A stretch of DNA of 64,000 nt, taken from an uncultured Alphaproteobacteria bacterium. GTDB lineage: Bacteria; Pseudomonadota; Alphaproteobacteria; Rhodobacterales; Rhodobacteraceae. This document shows positions 7,526-16,424 of the stretch, piece by piece (within the stretch, counting starts at the first letter, position 1; every line of letters begins with the position of its first letter). Location of the stretch: the NCBI GenBank assembly GCA_902600895.1, contig CACKLF010000001.1, positions 62,001 through 126,000 of the forward strand. The letters are read 5' to 3'. A program made the position numbers and the translations under genes. The notes under the pieces were generated by a model. That model was not told where the DNA came from and searched no databases. It saw only the letters and a list, made by a program, of their open reading frames with translations.

Positions 7526-7696
7526 AATGTATCTTTCTTTTCCATAAGAATTCCCTGTAATAGAGAATAATGCAAGAATATTATCAATCTAGCTTCTTAA
7601 TTTCTAGTGCAAAAAATTGAAGTTTATAATTTGCGCTATTAATAATTTTTCCCTATTAATTAAATCTGCCATAATTTTTATTTGGGATACGTAAAT

Positions 7697-9520
7697 TTGT
7701 GCGGAATTGTTGGAATAATAGGATCAACCTCAGTTCAATCCTCAATTATTGAAGCTCTGGAAAAGCTTGAATATCGTGGGTATGATAGTGCAGGCATTGC
7801 AACAATTTCAGAAAATGAAATCCTTTGTAGAAGATCGGTAGGAAAACTTTCATGTCTAAAAAATGAATTATCCAATGCCCCTGTTCTCGGGAAGATTGGT
7901 ATTGGGCACACCCGTTGGGCCACTCATGGTGCTCCTTCAATAGATAATGCTCATCCTCATCAAGTTGGAAAAGTAGCATTAGTTCATAATGGGATAATTG
8001 AAAATTACAATGAGCTAAAGGCACAGATTATAAGTGAAGGTGGTATAATGGTGAGTGAGACAGATACTGAAGTTGTTGCTGCTTTTTGTAATATGTTTTT
8101 AGAGTCTGGTATGAGCCCAGAGGAGGCTGTTTCTTCTACTTTGGGCCAACTGAAAGGTGCTTATGCACTATGTTTTATCTTTGAGGGCAATGAAGATCTA
8201 ATAATTGCGGCCAGAAAAGGAAGTCCTTTAGTCGTTGGGTGGGGTGTTGAGGAAATGTTTGTTGGGTCAGATGCTATTGCGTTGGCTCATTTGACTAACC
8301 AATTGACTTATGTAGAAGAAGAAAATTACGTGGTAATTTCAAGAAAAGAGGCAAAATTTTTTAACTTTGAGGGAAAAGAGCAACCTTCAAAAAAGGTATT
8401 TGTCAATTCTGAAAGTGTACTGGTTACAAAAAGTGGTTATAGACATTTCATGCATAAAGAAATTAATGAGCAAGCTTCAGTAATATCTTATGCTCTTGGT
8501 TCCTACACAAGTTTTGATAGAAAAAGAATACTTTTACCTAACCAAATACCAAGTTTTGCAAAGATGGATCGTCTAATTATCTCTGCCTGCGGTACTGCAT
8601 TCTTGGCCGGTCATGTCGCAAAGTATTGGTTTGAAAAAATTTCTGGTCTACCATCTGACATAGATATAGCATCTGAATTTCGATATAGAGAGCCCATAAT
8701 ATCCAAAAAAACTGGTGCTATCTTCGTTAGCCAATCGGGTGAAACAGCTGATACATTAGCTGCGTTGCGGATGGCAAAATCCAACTCAATTGAGACAATT
8801 GTAGTAGTAAATTCAGAAAATAGTACAATGGCCAGAGAGTCAGATATTATCATGCCAATAAAGGCTGGTGTTGAGGTAGGTGTTGCCTCTACAAAGGCTT
8901 TTACCTCTCAATTATTAGTGTTGGCTGCACTGGTCATTGAAGCGGCTCGACAGAGAAAAAAGATCAGCCCAAAACAAGAAGAAGAGTTTATTAACCAATT
9001 ATTTGCAATACCAAGGTTAATAAATGAGGTTCTTTCTAGAGAAAATGAAATAATAAATATATGTTCGGAGCTCGCAAATGCTCAAGATATTCTTTTTATT
9101 GCAAGAGGTCCTCTTTATCCACTCGCTTTAGAAGGGGCTTTAAAACTTAAAGAGATAAGTTACATACATGCCGAAGGTTATGCTGCGGGTGAGCTAAAGC
9201 ATGGGCCCATCGCATTGGTCGATAGCAGTGTCCCCATAATATGTTTCGCCCCAAGTAATATTCTTTATGACAAGACGACAAGCAATATACATGAAGTTAT
9301 CGCAAGGGGTGGAAAGGTTATTTTAGTATCAGATAAAGGGGGTTTAAGTGATTTTAAAGGAGACGTTTGGAAGTCTTTTGAGATGCCTTTTTCTGAACCT
9401 TTCATTCTACCCATACTCTACGCATTGCCCGCCCAATTACTTGCATATTATTCAGCTATAGAAAAAGGTACGGACGTAGATCAGCCTAGAAATCTGGCTA
9501 AATCAGTGACGGTTGAATGA
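7697..9520 (+). CDS. glmS: glutamine--fructose-6-phosphate aminotransferase
   Basis: CGIVGIIGS N-terminal nucleophile Cys (TTG start at 7697 puts Cys at position 2), SIS domains, C-terminus DVDQPRNLAKSVTVE. Confidence 0.97.
   Translation: MCGIVGIIGSTSVQSSIIEALEKLEYRGYDSAGIATISENEILCRRSVGKLSCLKNELSNAPVLGKIGIGHTRWATHGAPSIDNAHPHQVGKVALVHNGIIENYNELKAQIISEGGIMVSETDTEVVAAFCNMFLESGMSPEEAVSSTLGQLKGAYALCFIFEGNEDLIIAARKGSPLVVGWGVEEMFVGSDAIALAHLTNQLTYVEEENYVVISRKEAKFFNFEGKEQPSKKVFVNSESVLVTKSGYRHFMHKEINEQASVISYALGSYTSFDRKRILLPNQIPSFAKMDRLIISACGTAFLAGHVAKYWFEKISGLPSDIDIASEFRYREPIISKKTGAIFVSQSGETADTLAALRMAKSNSIETIVVVNSENSTMARESDIIMPIKAGVEVGVASTKAFTSQLLVLAALVIEAARQRKKISPKQEEEFINQLFAIPRLINEVLSRENEIINICSELANAQDILFIARGPLYPLALEGALKLKEISYIHAEGYAAGELKHGPIALVDSSVPIICFAPSNILYDKTTSNIHEVIARGGKVILVSDKGGLSDFKGDVWKSFEMPFSEPFILPILYALPAQLLAYYSAIEKGTDVDQPRNLAKSVTVE
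9500..9520 (+). other. att0: native glmS tail AAATCAGTGACGGTTGAATGA (KSVTVE-stop), proposed primary attachment site
   Basis: same tail recurs downstream at 9926, 12325, 14484, 14910, 15330. Confidence 0.75.
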
Positions 9521-9538
9521 TGGGGTTGTGTGGATTTT
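9521..9538 (+). repeat. cassette 1 left arm TGGGGTTGTGTGGATTTT
   Basis: inverted partner AAAACCCACACAACCCCA at 9907..9924; 17/18 complementary, 13 bp perfect core. Confidence 0.9.
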
Positions 9539-9550
9539 AGGAGATAATCA

Positions 9551-9904
9551 TTGAGTAGAAATATTGTAAAAATTCTAGATAAAGGGTTTTCCGATATCTC
9601 TGCTGGCGAGAAAATGCTGATTTCTTCGCCAGAAAAAATTTCAGATTTTATTTTTAACATACCCAAGGGTTCTTATTTAAGCATTAAAGAACTTAGGCGT
9701 GGACTAGCATTAAAAGCAGGAGCAGATAATACTTGTCCAGTAACAACGGGGATATTTCTGAGGATGGCAATTGAACAGCATAAAGATGATGTAACTTTCC
9801 CTTACTGGAGAGTTGTTAATGAAAAACACCCTGTAGTGAAAAAGTTAAACCTTGATGAAAATCAAATAAAAAAGAGGAGAGTTGATGAGGGAATACCATG
9901 CTAA
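9551..9904 (+). CDS. 117-aa protein, possibly 6-O-methylguanine-DNA methyltransferase/alkyltransferase-like (ATL) family (cassette 1 cargo)
   Basis: IPKGSYLSIKELRRGLALKAGADNTCPVTTGIFLRMA...FPYWRVVNEKHP; TTG start preceded by AGGAG; family from recollection. Confidence 0.6.
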   Translation: MSRNIVKILDKGFSDISAGEKMLISSPEKISDFIFNIPKGSYLSIKELRRGLALKAGADNTCPVTTGIFLRMAIEQHKDDVTFPYWRVVNEKHPVVKKLNLDENQIKKRRVDEGIPC

Positions 9905-9906
9905 GA

Positions 9907-9924
9907 AAAACCCACACAACCCCA
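9907..9924 (-). repeat. cassette 1 right arm AAAACCCACACAACCCCA
   Basis: inverted repeat of 9521..9538, ends 1 nt before the att1 glmS-like tail. Confidence 0.9.
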
Positions 9925-9925
9925 C

Positions 9926-9946
9926 AAATCGTTCACTGTGGAATAG
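9926..9946 (+). other. att1: glmS-tail copy AAATCGTTCACTGTGGAATAG (reads K-S-F-T-V-E-stop)
   Basis: alignment by codon to glmS tail K-S-V-T-V-E-stop. Confidence 0.8.
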
Positions 9947-9961
9947 TTTTAGAATGAACTA
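9946..9961 (+). repeat. cassette 2 left arm GTTTTAGAATGAACTA
   Basis: inverted partner TAATTCATTGTAAAAC at 10351..10366, 14/16 complementary. Confidence 0.6.
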
Positions 9962-10274
9962 TTATGGTCAACATTACATTCATAACATCAAATTTTCAGT
10001 ACAAAGTTCTAAGTTAGGAATATTTCGTTTAAGTGATGAACGATTTAAAAGGTTAGATTTGATGAATTTTCTATCCAAAAATGGATATTCTTCAAAGCAA
10101 ATAAGTGAATTCTTTAAACTGAATAATATTAAAACAGTTCGAACGAATAAAAATTACACACCAAAAGATGTTTGGGGTGGTTTGAAGAAATATAGAAAAC
10201 GATTAGAAAGATATACAAAAGATAGTGTGAGATTAATTAGTGAAGATATACAAATTATCTTTAAATCTAACTGA
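9954..10274 (+). CDS. small HTH protein resembling the DNA-binding region of recombinases (cassette 2 cargo)
   Basis: LSKNGYSSKQISEFFKLNNIKTVRTNKNYTPKDVWGGLKKYRKRLE; start set at ATG 9954 because the ORF-track start (9882) merely reads through att1. Confidence 0.5.
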   Translation: MNYYGQHYIHNIKFSVQSSKLGIFRLSDERFKRLDLMNFLSKNGYSSKQISEFFKLNNIKTVRTNKNYTPKDVWGGLKKYRKRLERYTKDSVRLISEDIQIIFKSN

Positions 10275-10350
10275 TTATAGAATTTATAAAATATACACAG
10301 GTGATATAAATTATCGATTTTATTCAATAATTTTCACCTAGTTTATTTGT

Positions 10351-10366
10351 TAATTCATTGTAAAAC
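10351..10366 (-). repeat. cassette 2 right arm TAATTCATTGTAAAAC
   Basis: 14/16 inverted repeat of 9946..9961; the glmS-tail expected next to it is degenerate or absent. Confidence 0.55.
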
Positions 10367-10496
10367 TTCAGACCTATTTCTTTTGGAAGTCATTTAATAA
10401 ATCAGGGTGGGTTTCTGATAAAAGATTTCAGTTGGTGAATGATTGAATATTTTTTCTTTTTTTTTAATATTTTATAAAAAATTGATTCAGGTCATT

Positions 10497-11966
10497 ATGA
10501 AATTATATTTTAAGTTCTTTAATTTATTGATTATTCCTTTTCTCATTAATGGTGCTGCCTTTTCAGACATAAATAAAACAACAGACCGTTATATAAGAGA
10601 TAAATATGGTTGTATGATAACCACACAGGACGGAATAAAACCCAAATTCAGTGAGAAAGAAAATGTATGGGTGAGTTCGATTCAAGGTTATGCTGATTTA
10701 AATCAAGATAAAATTCCTGAAATAATAGCAGGTTATGAACATGAATATTCTAAAAGAGGAGGTGTTTGGGCACGTACTACTTATCAATATGGTTTTTACA
10801 GTACAGATCCAAAATTTGTTCACCCATCTGGTACAAAGTTCCTAGCGGCAAGAACTATGCTTACTCAGGATTTTAATGGGGATGGCAAAGATGATGTTGT
10901 CTTTATCCAGCACGGACCAGATTTTGCTCCCTATGTTCCATATAGAAATGAAATTCTTTTAAGTCATAAAAAAGGATATAAAACTTTTTACCTACCAGGT
11001 GGAAAAAGTTTATATCATGGTGGTGCTGCAGGAGATTTTGATAATGATGGTGATATAGATATAGTCACTACACCAGGTTCAAATAACGAAATAAAAATTC
11101 TTCTTAACAATGGTTTTGGAAAATTCTCTGTAAGAAATATTAAAGGTTTTGGTCGAAATTATAATGTTAAAACATGGGATATAGATCAAGATGGAAATCT
11201 TGATCTGATCTTTGATGGACATGATGAAACAGTTACGATTTTATGGGGTTTGGGTAATGGTAGGTTTAAAAATAGTGGTATTGAATTTTCTCAATTAAAT
11301 TCATTTGATCTTCTACAAGATGCTGTTTTTCACAAAAAAGAAAATGGAAAAACAGATGTTATCATTGTATCAAGCAATGGCATTGATAAAAAATCTGCAC
11401 CTTATTTTGGATATTCTTTGGATAAACTTACTTTTAGTGGAAAAGAATTAATAGAAACCATTTCATTAGATAAACTCATAACATCCAGTTGGGGTGGTGA
11501 CTGGATAAATTTCATTCATGCTTGTGATTTAAAAAAAAATGGAACAATTGATATTATTTTTGAAAATAGTGGGGCATTAGGGAGATTCAGAAATTTAACA
11601 AACAAATATCTTTTTTTGGATAAAATTATATGGGAAAATACGGGTATTAAATATACAAGACATTTGGTTTTTGACCCTAACGACCATCTAATTCCAAAAG
11701 AAATTATTCCTCCAAACTTTTTTGGTGAAGATGAGATAGTTAAAAATTTGGGCATTTCTTTAAAAAAATATTTTCCTACTCAAACCTATGCACAAAAACC
11801 AAATGAGGAAAAGTTTTATATAAAACATAAAGGAATTATAGAAAGTATTTTTAGTGGGAAAACTATTTCAAATACAAGCGTAGCAGTAGAAAACGATCCC
11901 AACAAAGTCTCTCCACGTGTCAAAGAGATAATTGATAAAATGAAAAGTAATAAATCTTCAAAATAA
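10497..11966 (+). CDS. secreted FG-GAP/VCBS-repeat protein (cassette 3 cargo)
   Basis: signal peptide MKLYFKFFNLLIIPFLINGAAFS; DxNxDG repeats (QDFNGDGKDDVVF, GDFDNDGDIDIVT, WDIDQDGNLDLIF). Confidence 0.8.
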   Translation: MKLYFKFFNLLIIPFLINGAAFSDINKTTDRYIRDKYGCMITTQDGIKPKFSEKENVWVSSIQGYADLNQDKIPEIIAGYEHEYSKRGGVWARTTYQYGFYSTDPKFVHPSGTKFLAARTMLTQDFNGDGKDDVVFIQHGPDFAPYVPYRNEILLSHKKGYKTFYLPGGKSLYHGGAAGDFDNDGDIDIVTTPGSNNEIKILLNNGFGKFSVRNIKGFGRNYNVKTWDIDQDGNLDLIFDGHDETVTILWGLGNGRFKNSGIEFSQLNSFDLLQDAVFHKKENGKTDVIIVSSNGIDKKSAPYFGYSLDKLTFSGKELIETISLDKLITSSWGGDWINFIHACDLKKNGTIDIIFENSGALGRFRNLTNKYLFLDKIIWENTGIKYTRHLVFDPNDHLIPKEIIPPNFFGEDEIVKNLGISLKKYFPTQTYAQKPNEEKFYIKHKGIIESIFSGKTISNTSVAVENDPNKVSPRVKEIIDKMKSNKSSK

Positions 11967-11981
11967 AATAATTAACTAATT

Positions 11982-12392
11982 TTAAAACATATTTACCAAA
12001 GTCTTATCAACCACCTCTAGACTAAAATCAGACCATTGCTCTGGATACTCTCTTTCTAACTTCTCATCTTTCAGTCTTTTCTTCTTCACTATGGAATGAA
12101 CATGAGCACCTCTGAACTTCTTTCCACGAACTGATAGATATCCATTCATGTTTAAACATTCTGCAATTTGGTCAAAGGTCTTTCCTTTTTTTCTTTTTTC
12201 AGTGATTGTCTCATAAAGGAAGAATTGGTATTGTGAATACTGAGGAACATTAAGAGCAGGGTGACGAACGGTTATGGTGAAGCAAAAGAATGCGTCAGCA
12301 GGGAAAAGTGCATACCCACAACGCTTCTTATCCACCGTGGAGTGATTTTGAGAGGTGAATTTGCCTACTTCCTCCGTTTCCAAATTACCCAA
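11982..12392 (-). CDS. small HTH protein, minus-strand member (N-terminus uncertain; true start probably below 12324)
   Basis: KRKKGKTFDQIAECLNMNGYLSVRGKKFRGAHVHSIVKKKRLKDEKLE. Confidence 0.5.
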   Translation of the reverse strand: MGNLETEEVGKFTSQNHSTVDKKRCGYALFPADAFFCFTITVRHPALNVPQYSQYQFFLYETITEKRKKGKTFDQIAECLNMNGYLSVRGKKFRGAHVHSIVKKKRLKDEKLEREYPEQWSDFSLEVVDKTLVNMF

Positions 12393-12674
12393 AGATTTAA
12401 CGACCTAATCATTCCCTACAATCCAAGAAACTGGTCTGAGGAACAACAAGAGACTCACGACCTTATCAAGTCTCTTCATGATGGTGGTCTGCGTTATCGT
12501 AAGATTGCACAGCACTTGAATGAGAAGGGTATTAAGACTGCGAAGGGTAATGTTTGGAAGAATACTCAAGTCTATTCTGTTCTAAAGAGATATGAAGAGA
12601 AGATGTTCCGACAACAAATCGCAACAACCAAATACGAACCAGTTTGGTCAAAAATGTGGTTGGAATATGCCTGA
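12261..12674 (+). CDS. small HTH protein, plus-strand member (N-terminus uncertain; ORF reads through att2)
   Basis: LHDGGLRYRKIAQHLNEKGIKTAKGNVWKNTQVYSVLKRYEEK. Confidence 0.5.
   Translation: MTNGYGEAKECVSREKCIPTTLLIHRGVILRGEFAYFLRFQITQRFNDLIIPYNPRNWSEEQQETHDLIKSLHDGGLRYRKIAQHLNEKGIKTAKGNVWKNTQVYSVLKRYEEKMFRQQIATTKYEPVWSKMWLEYA
12309..12323 (-). repeat. cassette 3 right arm TGCATACCCACAACG
   Basis: located 1 nt before att2; reverse complement matches 15351..15365 at 12/15 with a perfect TGGGTATGCA. Confidence 0.55.
12325..12345 (+). other. att2: diverged glmS-tail copy TTCTTATCCACCGTGGAGTGA (reads F-L-S-T-V-E-stop)
   Basis: TYCACYGTGGA core shared with att1/att4; T-V-E-stop retained. Confidence 0.65.
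12346..12360 (+). repeat. cassette 4 left arm TTTTGAGAGGTGAAT
   Basis: starts right after the att2 stop; inverted partner ATTCACCTCTCTAAAA at 14468..14483 (11 bp perfect GAGAGGTGAAT). Confidence 0.75.
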
Positions 12675-12724
12675 TTATAAATTGTTTACATAAATTAACC
12701 TCTAAAGTTTTAACTATTAGAGAA

Positions 12725-12967
12725 TTATGGATTTGAGATCTGAAAAGCATTCCGTTTTATACCCACACAGTTAAAACCACTATTGTCACAAATAGTAATT
12801 TTGGTCACCCCATTTGTTGCAAGCGCCGGTGCGATTATGTTCGAAGAATACGGAATGGAAGCAATTGATAGAGCGATAAGTACTAAACCAATTAATATTG
12901 CTTTTTCGGTAGTTAGTGGTTGCATAATAACCTCACTTTCTTTTGGTTTAAAAAAATCAAATTTCAA
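12725..12967 (-). CDS. small membrane/exported protein of unknown function (start probably at internal MQPLTTEK)
   Basis: single TM segment ILIGLVLIALSIASIPYSSNIIAPALA then TICDNSGFNC. Confidence 0.5.
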   Translation of the reverse strand: MKFDFFKPKESEVIMQPLTTEKAILIGLVLIALSIASIPYSSNIIAPALATNGVTKITICDNSGFNCVGIKRNAFQISNP

Positions 12968-13104
12968 AATTTTAATGATTAAAATACCCGAATTGTATAT
13001 CTGTCGAAAAAATTTAATGAATTTTCATCTATTTATAAACTACTATGATTTTTCTATTCCAATACCGGTTATTAACTTACCCCTAAATCTTGCTTCTCAG
13101 TATA

Positions 13105-14361
13105 TCAAAAATCTTTCTCTTCCTTTGTGATATCTGTCTTTACTAACTGTTTTTCAAATTGCTTAGTTATCATTCTGATAAATTGTAAGGATTCTGGTAA
13201 AACCTCCTCAACACACTTATTTATCCTTTGCCGGTCTGTCAGAGAGTCATACATCGCTATAAGCATTCCATTTTCGTCTAACCACTTTTGATGCTCGGGG
13301 GTTGATACTTCCCACGCGGCATCCGTTATTTCATCCCAACTTGTTTGGGAAGGGAATTCAACCTCACCTTGGTCAACTGCCTTCTTCATCACAGCAAATA
13401 GTTTTTTTACTTCGTCCGCATAGGGAGCAGCACCTTCCTTTAGACAAATTGCTTTAAAGTTCCTATAATTTGCATAATGTGGCGCTAGGGCATCGTGTAT
13501 GAAACCACTTTGCTCGTCATTAAAACCTTCTATCCTTCTTGCGAGTCTCTCTTCTTCCAGTCTTCTCTTTTCTTCGTCCTCTGCTCTTTTTTCTTCTGCT
13601 ACTCTTACTATCTCGTCTTTGATATCTGCTAAGTCACGTAAACCAAGGTTAAATCCTATAATATATCCTTTTGTTGTTTGGCAGCGTTCAAAAAACAGAT
13701 CATCAGGCAAACTATTATTTTCATCGAACCTCTCTTGATAAATATCTATGAAACCGTCAATCTGCTGAAGAAAATTAAATGTATTTCTCATAAGACTTGT
13801 ATAGTTTCCGACTGCTGTAGAACCTAAAGATTCTGTTAACCATTGCTCGCAACTAGAGAAATTGGCGCTTAATAGCGCTACAATTACTATTGTTAATTCA
13901 TGTGAATCAGTTGCAATATTTTCATAATTACGTTCAATAATTTCTCCGTGTAAAACTCCCTCAGAGAAAGCAAAAGCATCACCACAAATCGCATCTAATT
14001 CTTCACTTGAACTGTTTGCTGTTCTGTTAGATCCTTTCATAAAGGTTTCTGAGAACAAGGGGATTTTTTGTAACTCTTCAAGTTTTGAGGTATTGAGTTC
14101 TGAAAAGTTTTCCACATAATTTGTATTCGTTATTGGATCGATAAAATCAGCACATTCTAAAACATTTGCATATAAGGACGCCATTTCAACAGGTGAGAAT
14201 GTTTCAGAGCGTACTACAAGTCCTAGTACTTTGGTTATATTAAATGGACTACTATTGAACTGTGCATAATCGAGTGAATTAATCGCTGATCCCTTAATTG
14301 GAATTGCCAAAAAAAATAAACTAAATATTAAACTAGTGATTACTCTATTGATCATTCGCAT
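13105..14361 (-). CDS. 418-aa secreted protein of unknown function (cassette 4 cargo)
   Basis: signal peptide MINRVITSLIFSLFFLAIPIKGSA; coiled-coil EEKRAEDEEKRRLEEERLARR. Confidence 0.7.
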   Translation of the reverse strand: MRMINRVITSLIFSLFFLAIPIKGSAINSLDYAQFNSSPFNITKVLGLVVRSETFSPVEMASLYANVLECADFIDPITNTNYVENFSELNTSKLEELQKIPLFSETFMKGSNRTANSSSEELDAICGDAFAFSEGVLHGEIIERNYENIATDSHELTIVIVALLSANFSSCEQWLTESLGSTAVGNYTSLMRNTFNFLQQIDGFIDIYQERFDENNSLPDDLFFERCQTTKGYIIGFNLGLRDLADIKDEIVRVAEEKRAEDEEKRRLEEERLARRIEGFNDEQSGFIHDALAPHYANYRNFKAICLKEGAAPYADEVKKLFAVMKKAVDQGEVEFPSQTSWDEITDAAWEVSTPEHQKWLDENGMLIAMYDSLTDRQRINKCVEEVLPESLQFIRMITKQFEKQLVKTDITKEEKDF

Positions 14362-14467
14362 ATCTGCAGGAAAACCTCCGTTAAGATTGATACAAGCAAG
14401 TTTATACGGTATACTTTATATTTCAATTTAAAAATGGAAACTGCCTTAATGATATCATGATTACTGT

Positions 14468-14483
14468 ATTCACCTCTCTAAAA
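14468..14483 (-). repeat. cassette 4 right arm ATTCACCTCTCTAAAA
   Basis: inverted repeat of 12346..12360, abuts att3. Confidence 0.75.
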
Positions 14484-14504
14484 CACTCAGTGACGGTTGA
14501 ATGA
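14484..14504 (+). other. att3: glmS-tail copy CACTCAGTGACGGTTGAATGA (reads H-S-V-T-V-E-stop) with no glmS upstream
   Basis: 18 nt identical to the real glmS 3' end at 9503..9520. Confidence 0.85.
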
Positions 14505-14926
14505 TGGGGTTGTGTGGATTTTAGGAGATAATCATTGAGTAGAAATATTGTAAAAATTCTAGATAAAGGGTTTTCCGATATCTCTGCTGGCGAGAAAATG
14601 CTGATTTCTTCGCCAGAAAAAATTTCAGATTTTATTTTTAACATACCCAAGGGTTCTTATTTAAGCATTAAAGAACTTAGGCGTGGACTAGCATTAAAAG
14701 CAGGAGCAGATAATACTTGTCCAGTAACAACGGGGATATTTCTGAGGATGGCAATTGAACAGCATAAAGATGATGTAACTTTCCCTTACTGGAGAGTTGT
14801 TAATGAAAAACACCCTGTAGTGAAAAAGTTAAACCTTGATGAAAATCAAATAAAAAAGAGGAGAGTTGATGAGGGAATACCATGCTAAGAAAAACCCACA
14901 CAACCCCACAAATCGTTCACTGTGGA
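14487..14926 (+). repeat. 440-bp perfect direct repeat, copy 2 (identical to 9503..9942)
   Basis: base-by-base comparison. Confidence 0.97.
14535..14888 (+). CDS. 117-aa possible ATL-family protein, second identical copy (cassette 5 cargo)
   Basis: identical protein and nucleotide sequence to 9551..9904. Confidence 0.6.
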   Translation: MSRNIVKILDKGFSDISAGEKMLISSPEKISDFIFNIPKGSYLSIKELRRGLALKAGADNTCPVTTGIFLRMAIEQHKDDVTFPYWRVVNEKHPVVKKLNLDENQIKKRRVDEGIPC

Positions 14927-14930
14927 GTAA
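14910..14930 (+). other. att4: glmS-tail copy AAATCGTTCACTGTGGAGTAA (reads K-S-F-T-V-E-stop)
   Basis: differs from att1 only at the E and stop codons. Confidence 0.8.
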
Positions 14931-14949
14931 GTTTCAAAGGACACACTTA
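14931..14949 (+). repeat. cassette 6 left arm GTTTCAAAGGACACACTTA
   Basis: starts right after the att4 stop; inverted partner TAAGTGCGTCCTTTGCAAC at 15310..15328, 17/19. Confidence 0.85.
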
Positions 14950-14961
14950 TAGGAGAAAAAT

Positions 14962-15303
14962 ATGAATTTTGGTCAAGCCGTTTCAAGTTGTTTTTCAAAT
15001 TATGTTACCCTTTCAGGGCGAGCATCGCGTTCTGAATATTGGTATTGGTGTTTATTCGTTTTTATTGGAAGTTTATGCACACTTATTGCTGATGGTTTTA
15101 TTTTAGGAAACATGGAAACCCAACCAATAAATTTGATATTCGCTTTGGCAACTTTTTTGCCTGGTCTTGCAGTGACAGTAAGAAGGTTACATGATGTTAA
15201 AAGAAGTGGTTGGTGGTTATTAATATCGCTAACTGGTATTGGTATTTTGCTATTACTATATTGGGCAGTTCAACCCTCTATTGATGAAGAGAATAAATAC
15301 TAA
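14962..15303 (+). CDS. DUF805 membrane protein (cassette 6 cargo)
   Basis: SRASRSEYWYWCLF and AVTVRRLHDVKRSGWWLL. Confidence 0.88.
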   Translation: MNFGQAVSSCFSNYVTLSGRASRSEYWYWCLFVFIGSLCTLIADGFILGNMETQPINLIFALATFLPGLAVTVRRLHDVKRSGWWLLISLTGIGILLLLYWAVQPSIDEENKY

Positions 15304-15309
15304 TGGTCT

Positions 15310-15328
15310 TAAGTGCGTCCTTTGCAAC
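15310..15328 (-). repeat. cassette 6 right arm TAAGTGCGTCCTTTGCAAC
   Basis: 17/19 inverted repeat of 14931..14949; ends 1 nt before att5. Confidence 0.85.
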
Positions 15329-15329
15329 A

Positions 15330-15350
15330 AAGTCCGTCACTATGGAATAG
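15330..15350 (+). other. att5: glmS-tail copy AAGTCCGTCACTATGGAATAG (reads K-S-V-T-M-E-stop)
   Basis: five of six codons match the GlmS C-terminus at amino-acid level. Confidence 0.8.
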
Positions 15351-15365
15351 TGCTATGGGTATGCA
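15351..15365 (+). repeat. cassette 7 left arm TGCTATGGGTATGCA
   Basis: starts right after the att5 stop; matches reverse complement of the cassette 3 right arm (12309..12323). Confidence 0.55.
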
Positions 15366-15447
15366 AATTTTTTATTTGTATGTCTTAATTTAAATTTAAA
15401 ATGAAATAATTTATAAAGATGACTCATATATGGAAAGATTAAGTTAG

Positions 15448-15873
15448 ATGCATTTATTGCACAATATAGTATCTGTAATTTTTTTGTTTGTATTTTCGAA
15501 TGCTCTATATGGTAAAACTATTCAAATTGCTTTCACTAAAGATGACTCCTACAGCATCGAAGTTGCACATGTCGATGTTGCTGATACCATTGAGTGGTTA
15601 CCCAAAAACGAGGGGCACAATGTAGAGTTTCTTATAGGTCCAAATGTTAACGCTTTGCCAAAAAAGTCTGTATTAAATGCTTTCTACGCTGTAACTTTTG
15701 ATTTACCTGGACTTTATTTGTATCAATGTACCCCACACGGTCATATGGGTATGCTAGGTTTAGTGGTTGTAGGGAATGACTTTCATAATCTAAAAGATAT
15801 CAGGGAACTAGAACTATCTAGGGTAGCAAAGTCAGTATTGCAAAGATTGATTAGAATTGCGGAGTCACATTAG
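15448..15873 (+). CDS. cupredoxin (pseudoazurin/plastocyanin-like) with signal peptide
   Basis: EGHNVEF...YQCTPHGHMGMLGLVVVG type-1 copper ligands. Confidence 0.85.
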   Translation: MHLLHNIVSVIFLFVFSNALYGKTIQIAFTKDDSYSIEVAHVDVADTIEWLPKNEGHNVEFLIGPNVNALPKKSVLNAFYAVTFDLPGLYLYQCTPHGHMGMLGLVVVGNDFHNLKDIRELELSRVAKSVLQRLIRIAESH

Positions 15874-15903
15874 CAAACAATCTAGGCAATTTTTGAACAT
15901 GTA

Positions 15904-15998
15904 GACCAAGTTTTATCAATCACCGCTAAACCAAAGTCAGATCAAACCTCTAGATTTCTTTTTCTAACTTTTCATCTTTCAGTCTTTTCTTTACTAAA
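15904..15998 (-). pseudogene. degenerate copy of the 3' part of the minus-strand HTH gene at 11982..12392
   Basis: ACCAAGTTTTATCAATCACCGCTAAACCAAAGTCAGATCA...TTTCTAACTTTTCATCTTTCAGTCTTTTCTT aligns to 11995..12086 by eye with gaps. Confidence 0.7.
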
Positions 15999-16142: not shown

Positions 16143-16424
16143 TCAAGACCAATATTCTTTTGATATAGTTTCAATTACTTCCTGGCTTTCCAATTCAACT
16201 CCAGCATCTGCTCTTTTTTTTGTAATATCTTCACGTTTAACTAAAATCTCAAAGTTTGCAGGGTTTTGTACTTCAGTGATGTCAAATACCTTGGTTTCAT
16301 CCGAGTTTGTTCCAGCCCATAGAATTTTTATCCCAAGTTCATTTAAGTCAGGTTCAATTTCCTTGTACATTTTCAACCAGGTATCAAAACCTTTAGTTAT
16401 TTTAAAAGTCGAAAGAAATTTCAT
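16143..16424 (-). CDS. small DUF3764-like protein
   Basis: MKFLSTFKITKGFDTWLKMYKEIEPDLNELGIKILWAGTNSDETKVFDITEVQNP; family assignment tentative. Confidence 0.5.
   Translation of the reverse strand: MKFLSTFKITKGFDTWLKMYKEIEPDLNELGIKILWAGTNSDETKVFDITEVQNPANFEILVKREDITKKRADAGVELESQEVIETISKEYWS

Follow-up and report, generated by a model that had tools for sequence, protein, structure and literature searches.

We identified a tandem array of small cassettes directly behind glmS in a window of 64,000 nucleotides (the whole stretch of DNA analysed: contig CACKLF010000001.1 of assembly GCA_902600895.1, positions 62,001 to 126,000) from an uncultured alphaproteobacterium of the family Rhodobacteraceae. 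Several of these cassettes carry inverted arms that pair privately within the cassette and lie beside cores resembling the end of glmS. It is likely that they represent an SCC-like cassette system related to CcrB, in which the arms would be the outer parts of the attP half-sites of a large serine recombinase (LSR) and the mini-cassettes would move in trans.

The cassette array downstream of glmS

The array comprises the following features (window coordinates; strand in brackets where one applies).

7682-9520 (+): glmS, its open reading frame ending in AKSVTVE and a stop codon
9500-9520: final seven glmS codons, inferred attB and left-junction core (0 mismatches to the core pattern in the own-genome search)
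9521-9924: cassette 1; left arm 9521-9538, right arm 9907-9924, 17/18 complementary, pairing with each other only
9551-9904: open reading frame of cassette 1 (117 aa, no family; no match in Pfam or PHROGs)
9926-9946 (+): right-junction core of cassette 1, AAATCGTTCACTGTGGAATAG
9947-12324: probably a fusion of cassettes 2 and 3 whose intervening core has decayed; no arm match as one unit
9957-10274 (+): small PF07508-like gene of the fused unit, found by profile A3
10443-11966 (+): FG-GAP protein gene of the fused unit
about 11982-12335 (-): small PF07508-like gene of the fused unit (weak PF07508 match; found by profile A3)
directly 5' of 12325: right arm of the fused unit, TGCATACCCACAACGC
12325-12345 (+): core TTCTTATCCACCGTGGAGTGA, left half diverged
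12346-14483: cassette 4; left arm 12346-12360, right arm 14468-14483
ending at 12674 (+): small PF07508 gene of cassette 4 (PF07508, E 2.8e-6)
13105-14361 (-): second open reading frame of cassette 4
14484-14504 (+): right-junction core of cassette 4
14505-14908: cassette 5, a copy of cassette 1; arms 14505-14522 and 14891-14908
14910-14930 (+): right-junction core of cassette 5
14931-15328: cassette 6; left arm 14931-14949, right arm 15310-15328, 17/19 complementary
14962-15303: DUF805 protein of cassette 6 (DUF805, E 2.2e-25)
15330-15350 (+): right-junction core of cassette 6, AAGTCCGTCACTATGGAATAG
15351-15991: remnant of the last cassette, right end lost; left arm TGCTATGGGTATGCAAA
15448-15873: plastocyanin-like protein of the remnant (Copper-bind, E 2.7e-10)
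about 15909-15991 (-): broken small PF07508-like gene of the remnant, with remnant matches to the cassette 3 protein

Cassettes 1 and 5 share 440 identical bp, including parts of their cores (9503-9942 = 14487-14926). Because they are copies of one cassette, they were entered once in the counts, and their identity indicates an apparently recent movement. A DUF3764 gene lies 3' of the array (16143-16424, minus strand); in the sister species G033 (single-cell genome AG-343-N19), a DUF3764 gene on another contig (G033:C7, L018) adjoins a broken homologue of the cassette 1 protein. One more core candidate, on contig 46 of the window's own genome, was set aside; its surroundings contain no visible array.

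Pairing of the arms

The arms of cassettes 1, 5, 4 and 6 are real. When every left arm was compared with every right arm (30 nt beside each core), cassettes 1, 4, 5 and 6 scored 15.5, 12.5, 15.5 and 14.0, respectively, with their own partners, while off-diagonal scores in the window did not exceed 7.5; higher ones occurred only between two other genomes with a common arm motif. Random pairs of 18-mers from the window reached 14/18 with a frequency of 1.7e-5. All sequences quoted in a first-pass annotation of this DNA are present where it had placed them, and its counts of 17/18 for cassettes 1 and 5 and 17/19 for cassette 6 were reproduced. For cassette 4 it had given arms of 11 nt; the pairing held but the length did not, as the arms are longer (TTTT-GAGAGGTGAAT / ATTCACCTCTCTAAAA). 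The pair that it had assigned to cassette 2 (9946/10351) was dropped: 318 of 1500 random 30-mers have an equal partner in the same 2.35 kb, and no recognisable core lies behind it.

A G-rich motif at the same position is common to many left arms. The left arm of cassette 2, TTTTAGAATGA (window 9947-9957), is identical in the distant genome G687 (L074), and the left arm TGGGGTTCGGTGGTAAGTC is present in both G699 and G969.

Seven further arm-bearing cassettes were found in six other genomes. The genus was sampled by the window's genome and G033, in which the same place is occupied by different cassettes with arms GTAGGTACGCAAGA / TCTTGCGTACCTAC and GTTTAAAATAA / TTATTTTAAAC and a glmS-like core behind each cassette. 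The former cassette is related to window cassette 3 and to the last-cassette remnant, and the arm GGTAT/ATACC of these window units corresponds to GGTAC/GTACC in G033, a compensatory change in a comparison in which the two window arms belong to different units. Arm-bearing cassettes also lie 3' of glmS in G699, G967, G969, G705 and, weakly, G895. Control loci, glmS regions of the family without an array, gave a chance partner of 9 nt at best, with no core behind it. The arrays of a third lineage (G818, G898 and G721) have cores and the small protein described below, but no arms. In these three genomes (L078, L077 and L143, respectively; same family, 1.4 Mb each), array content varies between relatives, and a mini-ORF mimicking the GlmS end (MKIDDQPRNLTKKITVE followed by a stop codon) precedes each further small-protein gene.

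Covariation was scored on 10 independent cassettes, aligned without gaps from the core, with the left arm taken as the 18 nt after the core and the right arm as the 18 nt that stop one base short of the next core. In this fixed register, complementarity within cassettes amounted to 149 of 180 positions, compared with 32-69 in other registers. Re-pairing left and right arms between cassettes gave a mean of 77.9 and a maximum of 132, none of 100,000 permutations reaching 149, and 320 of 566 doubly paired comparisons involved a different base pair. Taken together, these results show that each cassette has its own pairing and that the arms covary, which bears out the main point of the first-pass annotation more strongly than it had been put there. 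The arms of G895 were the least symmetric of the ten (10/18). The permuted mean lies far above a quarter of 180, owing in part to base composition and in part to a weak consensus common to the arms. Of the earlier description of conserved pairing between unrelated sequences, the conserved pairing therefore stands but the lack of relationship does not: several arms recur in distant genera, and judging from their sequences the arms are better called diverged relatives.

The core and its symmetry centre

As proposed in the first-pass annotation, the mobile cassettes carry a glmS-tail core, which is flanked by the arms in the predicted circle. The centre of symmetry is the dinucleotide AC at core positions 10-11, within the glmS tail, and it is invariant in all 10 cassettes. 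From AC onward, right-junction cores match the glmS codons in 99 of 100 tests, whereas before AC they match in 49 of 70; some cores were found with a glmS-like pattern, which biases these numbers toward conserved cores, and one search favoured the right half especially. Such a difference between the half-cores is expected if the crossover occurs at AC, the element then supplying the left part and glmS the right one. In six cases (cassette 1, the cassette designated A, and those of G699, G967, G969 and G705), a search that used only the arms and took no account of the core had its best match at the same place. The invariant AC and the half-core conservation are consistent with a predicted attP x attB recombination at the central dinucleotide.

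With positions numbered from the centre outward, dyad symmetry has its peaks at 6, 7, 9 and 16-26 and is low at 1-5, 8, 10 and 11. In a solved LSR-attP complex, the half-site is 25 bp long and the zinc domain contacts positions 16-24 (PMC3783163). The outer symmetric block of the arms (16-26) coincides with the outer motif of LSR attP sites, about 16-24 bp from the crossover. The arm motif AGGGGGTA occupies the same position in the LSR-encoding element of G895 and in the LSR-less cassette of G699, and in G895 all eight of its bases are symmetric, near the zinc-domain position.

In the mechanism that we propose, the right arm, a 22-nt centre and the left arm of an excised circle would together make up a single site of about 58 bp, two-fold symmetric about AC. 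The attB site would be the last seven glmS codons (K-S-V-T-V-E-stop), which carry the same AC. Crossover at AC would place the cassette behind glmS, which would receive the element's version of its last codons, and would leave a new glmS-like tail downstream, so that more cassettes could stack. The two attP half-sites would have to match because the same recombinase would bind both; the arms would covary because one dimeric recombinase reads both half-sites, and differing or drifting recombinase specificities would account for the differences between cassettes. In full-size elements the LSR would be encoded at the right end; the window mini-cassettes have no recombinase and would have to be moved in trans.

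Large serine recombinases at glmS

In G895, a 6-kb element lies between glmS and the next core. Besides two methyltransferases, a PLD-like protein and the small PF07508-only protein described below, it encodes an intact LSR of 537 aa with domains PF00239, PF07508 and PF13408; about 17 nt separate the end of the LSR gene from the right arm. Among curated families, CcrB is the nearest to this LSR (full length, E 1.8e-27), with a score of 96 bits against a cut-off of 900. The closest relative found (51%) is the stop-interrupted LSR of G745, which is encoded between glmS and a second glmS tail; by inspection, the left end of this broken element has no arm partner. A 607-bp inverted copy (98.5%) of the 3' part of the G745 LSR gene lies directly after glmS (L148; 10382-10988; about 16.4-17.0 kb), so the element either has very long inverted ends or has been rearranged. 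A 31% relative of the G895 LSR in G764 has a 3' end that runs over a tail-like core; the left end of that element and glmS were not found on the stretch examined. In G705, a 277-aa open reading frame without a Pfam match lies immediately before the right arm and, judged by eye, is probably the coiled-coil tail of an LSR.

The window's own genome (60% complete) yielded no serine recombinase, and the sister genome (74% complete) only a small resolvase-like protein and no LSR. Relatives of the LSR in plasmids were limited to recombinases of Firmicutes with 24-32% identity, and none were found in viral contigs. Titles and abstracts of the literature outside subscription journals contain no report of natural serine-recombinase integration at glmS.

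A small protein with only the PF07508 domain

Several cassettes carry a small protein of about 100-135 aa with the PF07508 'Recombinase' domain only. Profile searches found it in 19 alphaproteobacterial genomes, including the window's own; glmS is in the same locus in 18 of them, and the match in the remaining genome (G879) lies near a contig end. All located arrays are at glmS, and several of the small-protein genes seem, by inspection, to begin at a stop codon, either that of glmS or that of a core. The alignment of the small proteins contains no invariant serine or tyrosine, so they are unlikely to be the catalyst; perhaps they serve as directionality or target-binding accessories. A profile search against solved structures returned mainly designed helical proteins.

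Searches of phage records and viral contigs for homologues of the small proteins and of the cassette 1 protein gave one glmS-linked 4-kb contig and four weak partial matches. This contig (L058, IMG/VR 3300020177_001290), filed as viral, starts inside a glmS gene; a relative of the small protein, 49% identical, begins right after the glmS stop codon and is followed by a 288-aa protein without a family and two DUF723/treble-clef repeat proteins.

Cargo and hosts

The cargo of the window array consists of a protein without assigned function, an FG-GAP protein, a DUF805 protein and a plastocyanin-like protein. In other genomes, matches to defence models in or just behind the arrays include type III and type II methyltransferases, a type II restriction enzyme, a type I specificity subunit and the candidate systems PDC-S11 and PDC-S02, part of this cargo being placed between two confirmed junctions. 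The first element after glmS in G687 (L074) encodes the small protein and an open reading frame with a weak REP_ORF2-G2P (Rep-like) match, which hints at rolling-circle replication. The hosts of the arrays have small, AT-rich genomes and are probably marine.

Alternative modes of arm recognition

According to the first-pass annotation, the arms may be recognised by structure, as in integron attC. A recombinase would then read the shape of a folded single strand, a hairpin at the circle junction. Five of six junctions do fold far better than shuffled sequences (z -3.7 to -7.3), the pairing persists as the sequence changes, and the weakly matching Rep-like (HUH-type) protein of G687 could make single strands. 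However, any good inverted repeat must fold, so folding alone cannot separate the readings, and the junction of G895, the element with the intact LSR, forms no significant hairpin (z -1.1). Symmetric bases are also found inside the core (6, 7 and 9) with asymmetric ones between them, arm motifs recur across genera, and in the linear array the two arms of a cassette lie apart. Matches to the Phage_integrase domain (PF00589) in the genus were limited to an XerC/D-like gene of the sister and a weak fragment in the window's own genome, and no IntI-like integrase was found, both genomes being incomplete. Recognition of a folded strand is thereby weakened and appears quite unlikely; the symmetry pattern, the recurrent arm motifs, the AC centre and the right-end LSR genes favour a putative double-stranded attP of a serine recombinase.

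The arms could also be read not by the LSR but by the small PF07508-only protein, as a cassette-specific adaptor that recruits shared catalytic subunits. Although this protein is the most constant gene of the arrays and its similarity weakly tracks that of the arms (Mantel r 0.33, p 0.02), common descent may explain this correlation, and in some cassettes the arms overlap protein-coding DNA. Moreover, cassettes 1/5 and 6 and the cassette designated B have arms without a small-protein gene, and the LSR-bearing G745 and G764 gave no match to the small-protein profile in the class samples, which leaves such an adaptor rather improbable. A broader, integron-like scheme without an integron is doubtful: in it, mini-cassettes of ~0.4 kb, most of them without a recombinase, would move in trans between glmS arrays, and the small protein would adapt shared catalytic subunits to particular arms or targets. 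Ordinary transposons with element-specific terminal inverted repeats would likewise have arms at their ends, and glmS is the target of Tn7, so the insertion address would fit. Yet the cassettes each carry a diverged glmS-tail core and not a short, exact duplication of the target, this core contains the symmetry centre, no transposase was recognised among the cassette ORFs scanned, and LSRs are present instead; we regard this explanation as very improbable.

Comparison with known systems

If the attribution to LSR att sites is correct, an SCC-like cassette system exists outside Gram-positive bacteria, in alphaproteobacteria with small AT-rich genomes. The glmS tail may then be a widespread port for the exchange of phage defence, given that in other genomes several units have methyltransferases, nucleases and further genes that match defence models. 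Natural arm variants would be ready-made material for studying site choice by serine recombinases, and a testable question arises from the mini-cassettes, namely what moves units without a recombinase.

Tn7 and Tn7-like elements at attTn7 use the same chromosomal address, glmS, but the site of the glmS cassettes lies inside the coding tail and is recreated, and no tns-type genes were recognised among the cassette ORFs scanned. Integron cassettes resemble the glmS cassettes in their tandem arrays, mostly single-gene units, fixed site and pairing arms of variable sequence. In contrast to attC, the arms of glmS cassettes are split to both ends of the unit, and their symmetry fits a double-stranded site. 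The strand-biased circularizing elements SE-6945 and SE-6283 also have imperfect inverted repeats of 19 bp at their ends, but they employ two tyrosine recombinases and a 6-bp central region (PMC9345347), neither of which was seen in glmS cassettes. The attP and attB sites of serine integrases such as that of phage A118 (PMC3783163) are similar in half-site length, in the symmetric zinc-domain block and in the short central overlap, whereas the glmS sites are predicted ones and no phage genes were seen in the elements.

The staphylococcal and enterococcal cassette chromosomes (SCC and ECC; PMC6222049) are driven by Ccr recombinases at rlmH. There, too, an LSR-driven cassette with variable cargo is inserted at the 3' end of a conserved gene, and like these elements the glmS cassettes have inverted repeats and gene-tail direct repeats at their ends. 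In the glmS system, however, the target is glmS rather than rlmH, the hosts are alphaproteobacteria, there is one divergent LSR whose score falls far short of the Ccr cut-offs, many units (0.4-2 kb) lack a recombinase, a small PF07508-only protein is present, and the arms vary more. The glmS system would work like SCC/ECC but is not a member of it, because target gene and recombinase differ. The glmS cassettes would resemble the staphylococcal cassette that confers methicillin resistance, at a different location and partly on a much smaller scale.
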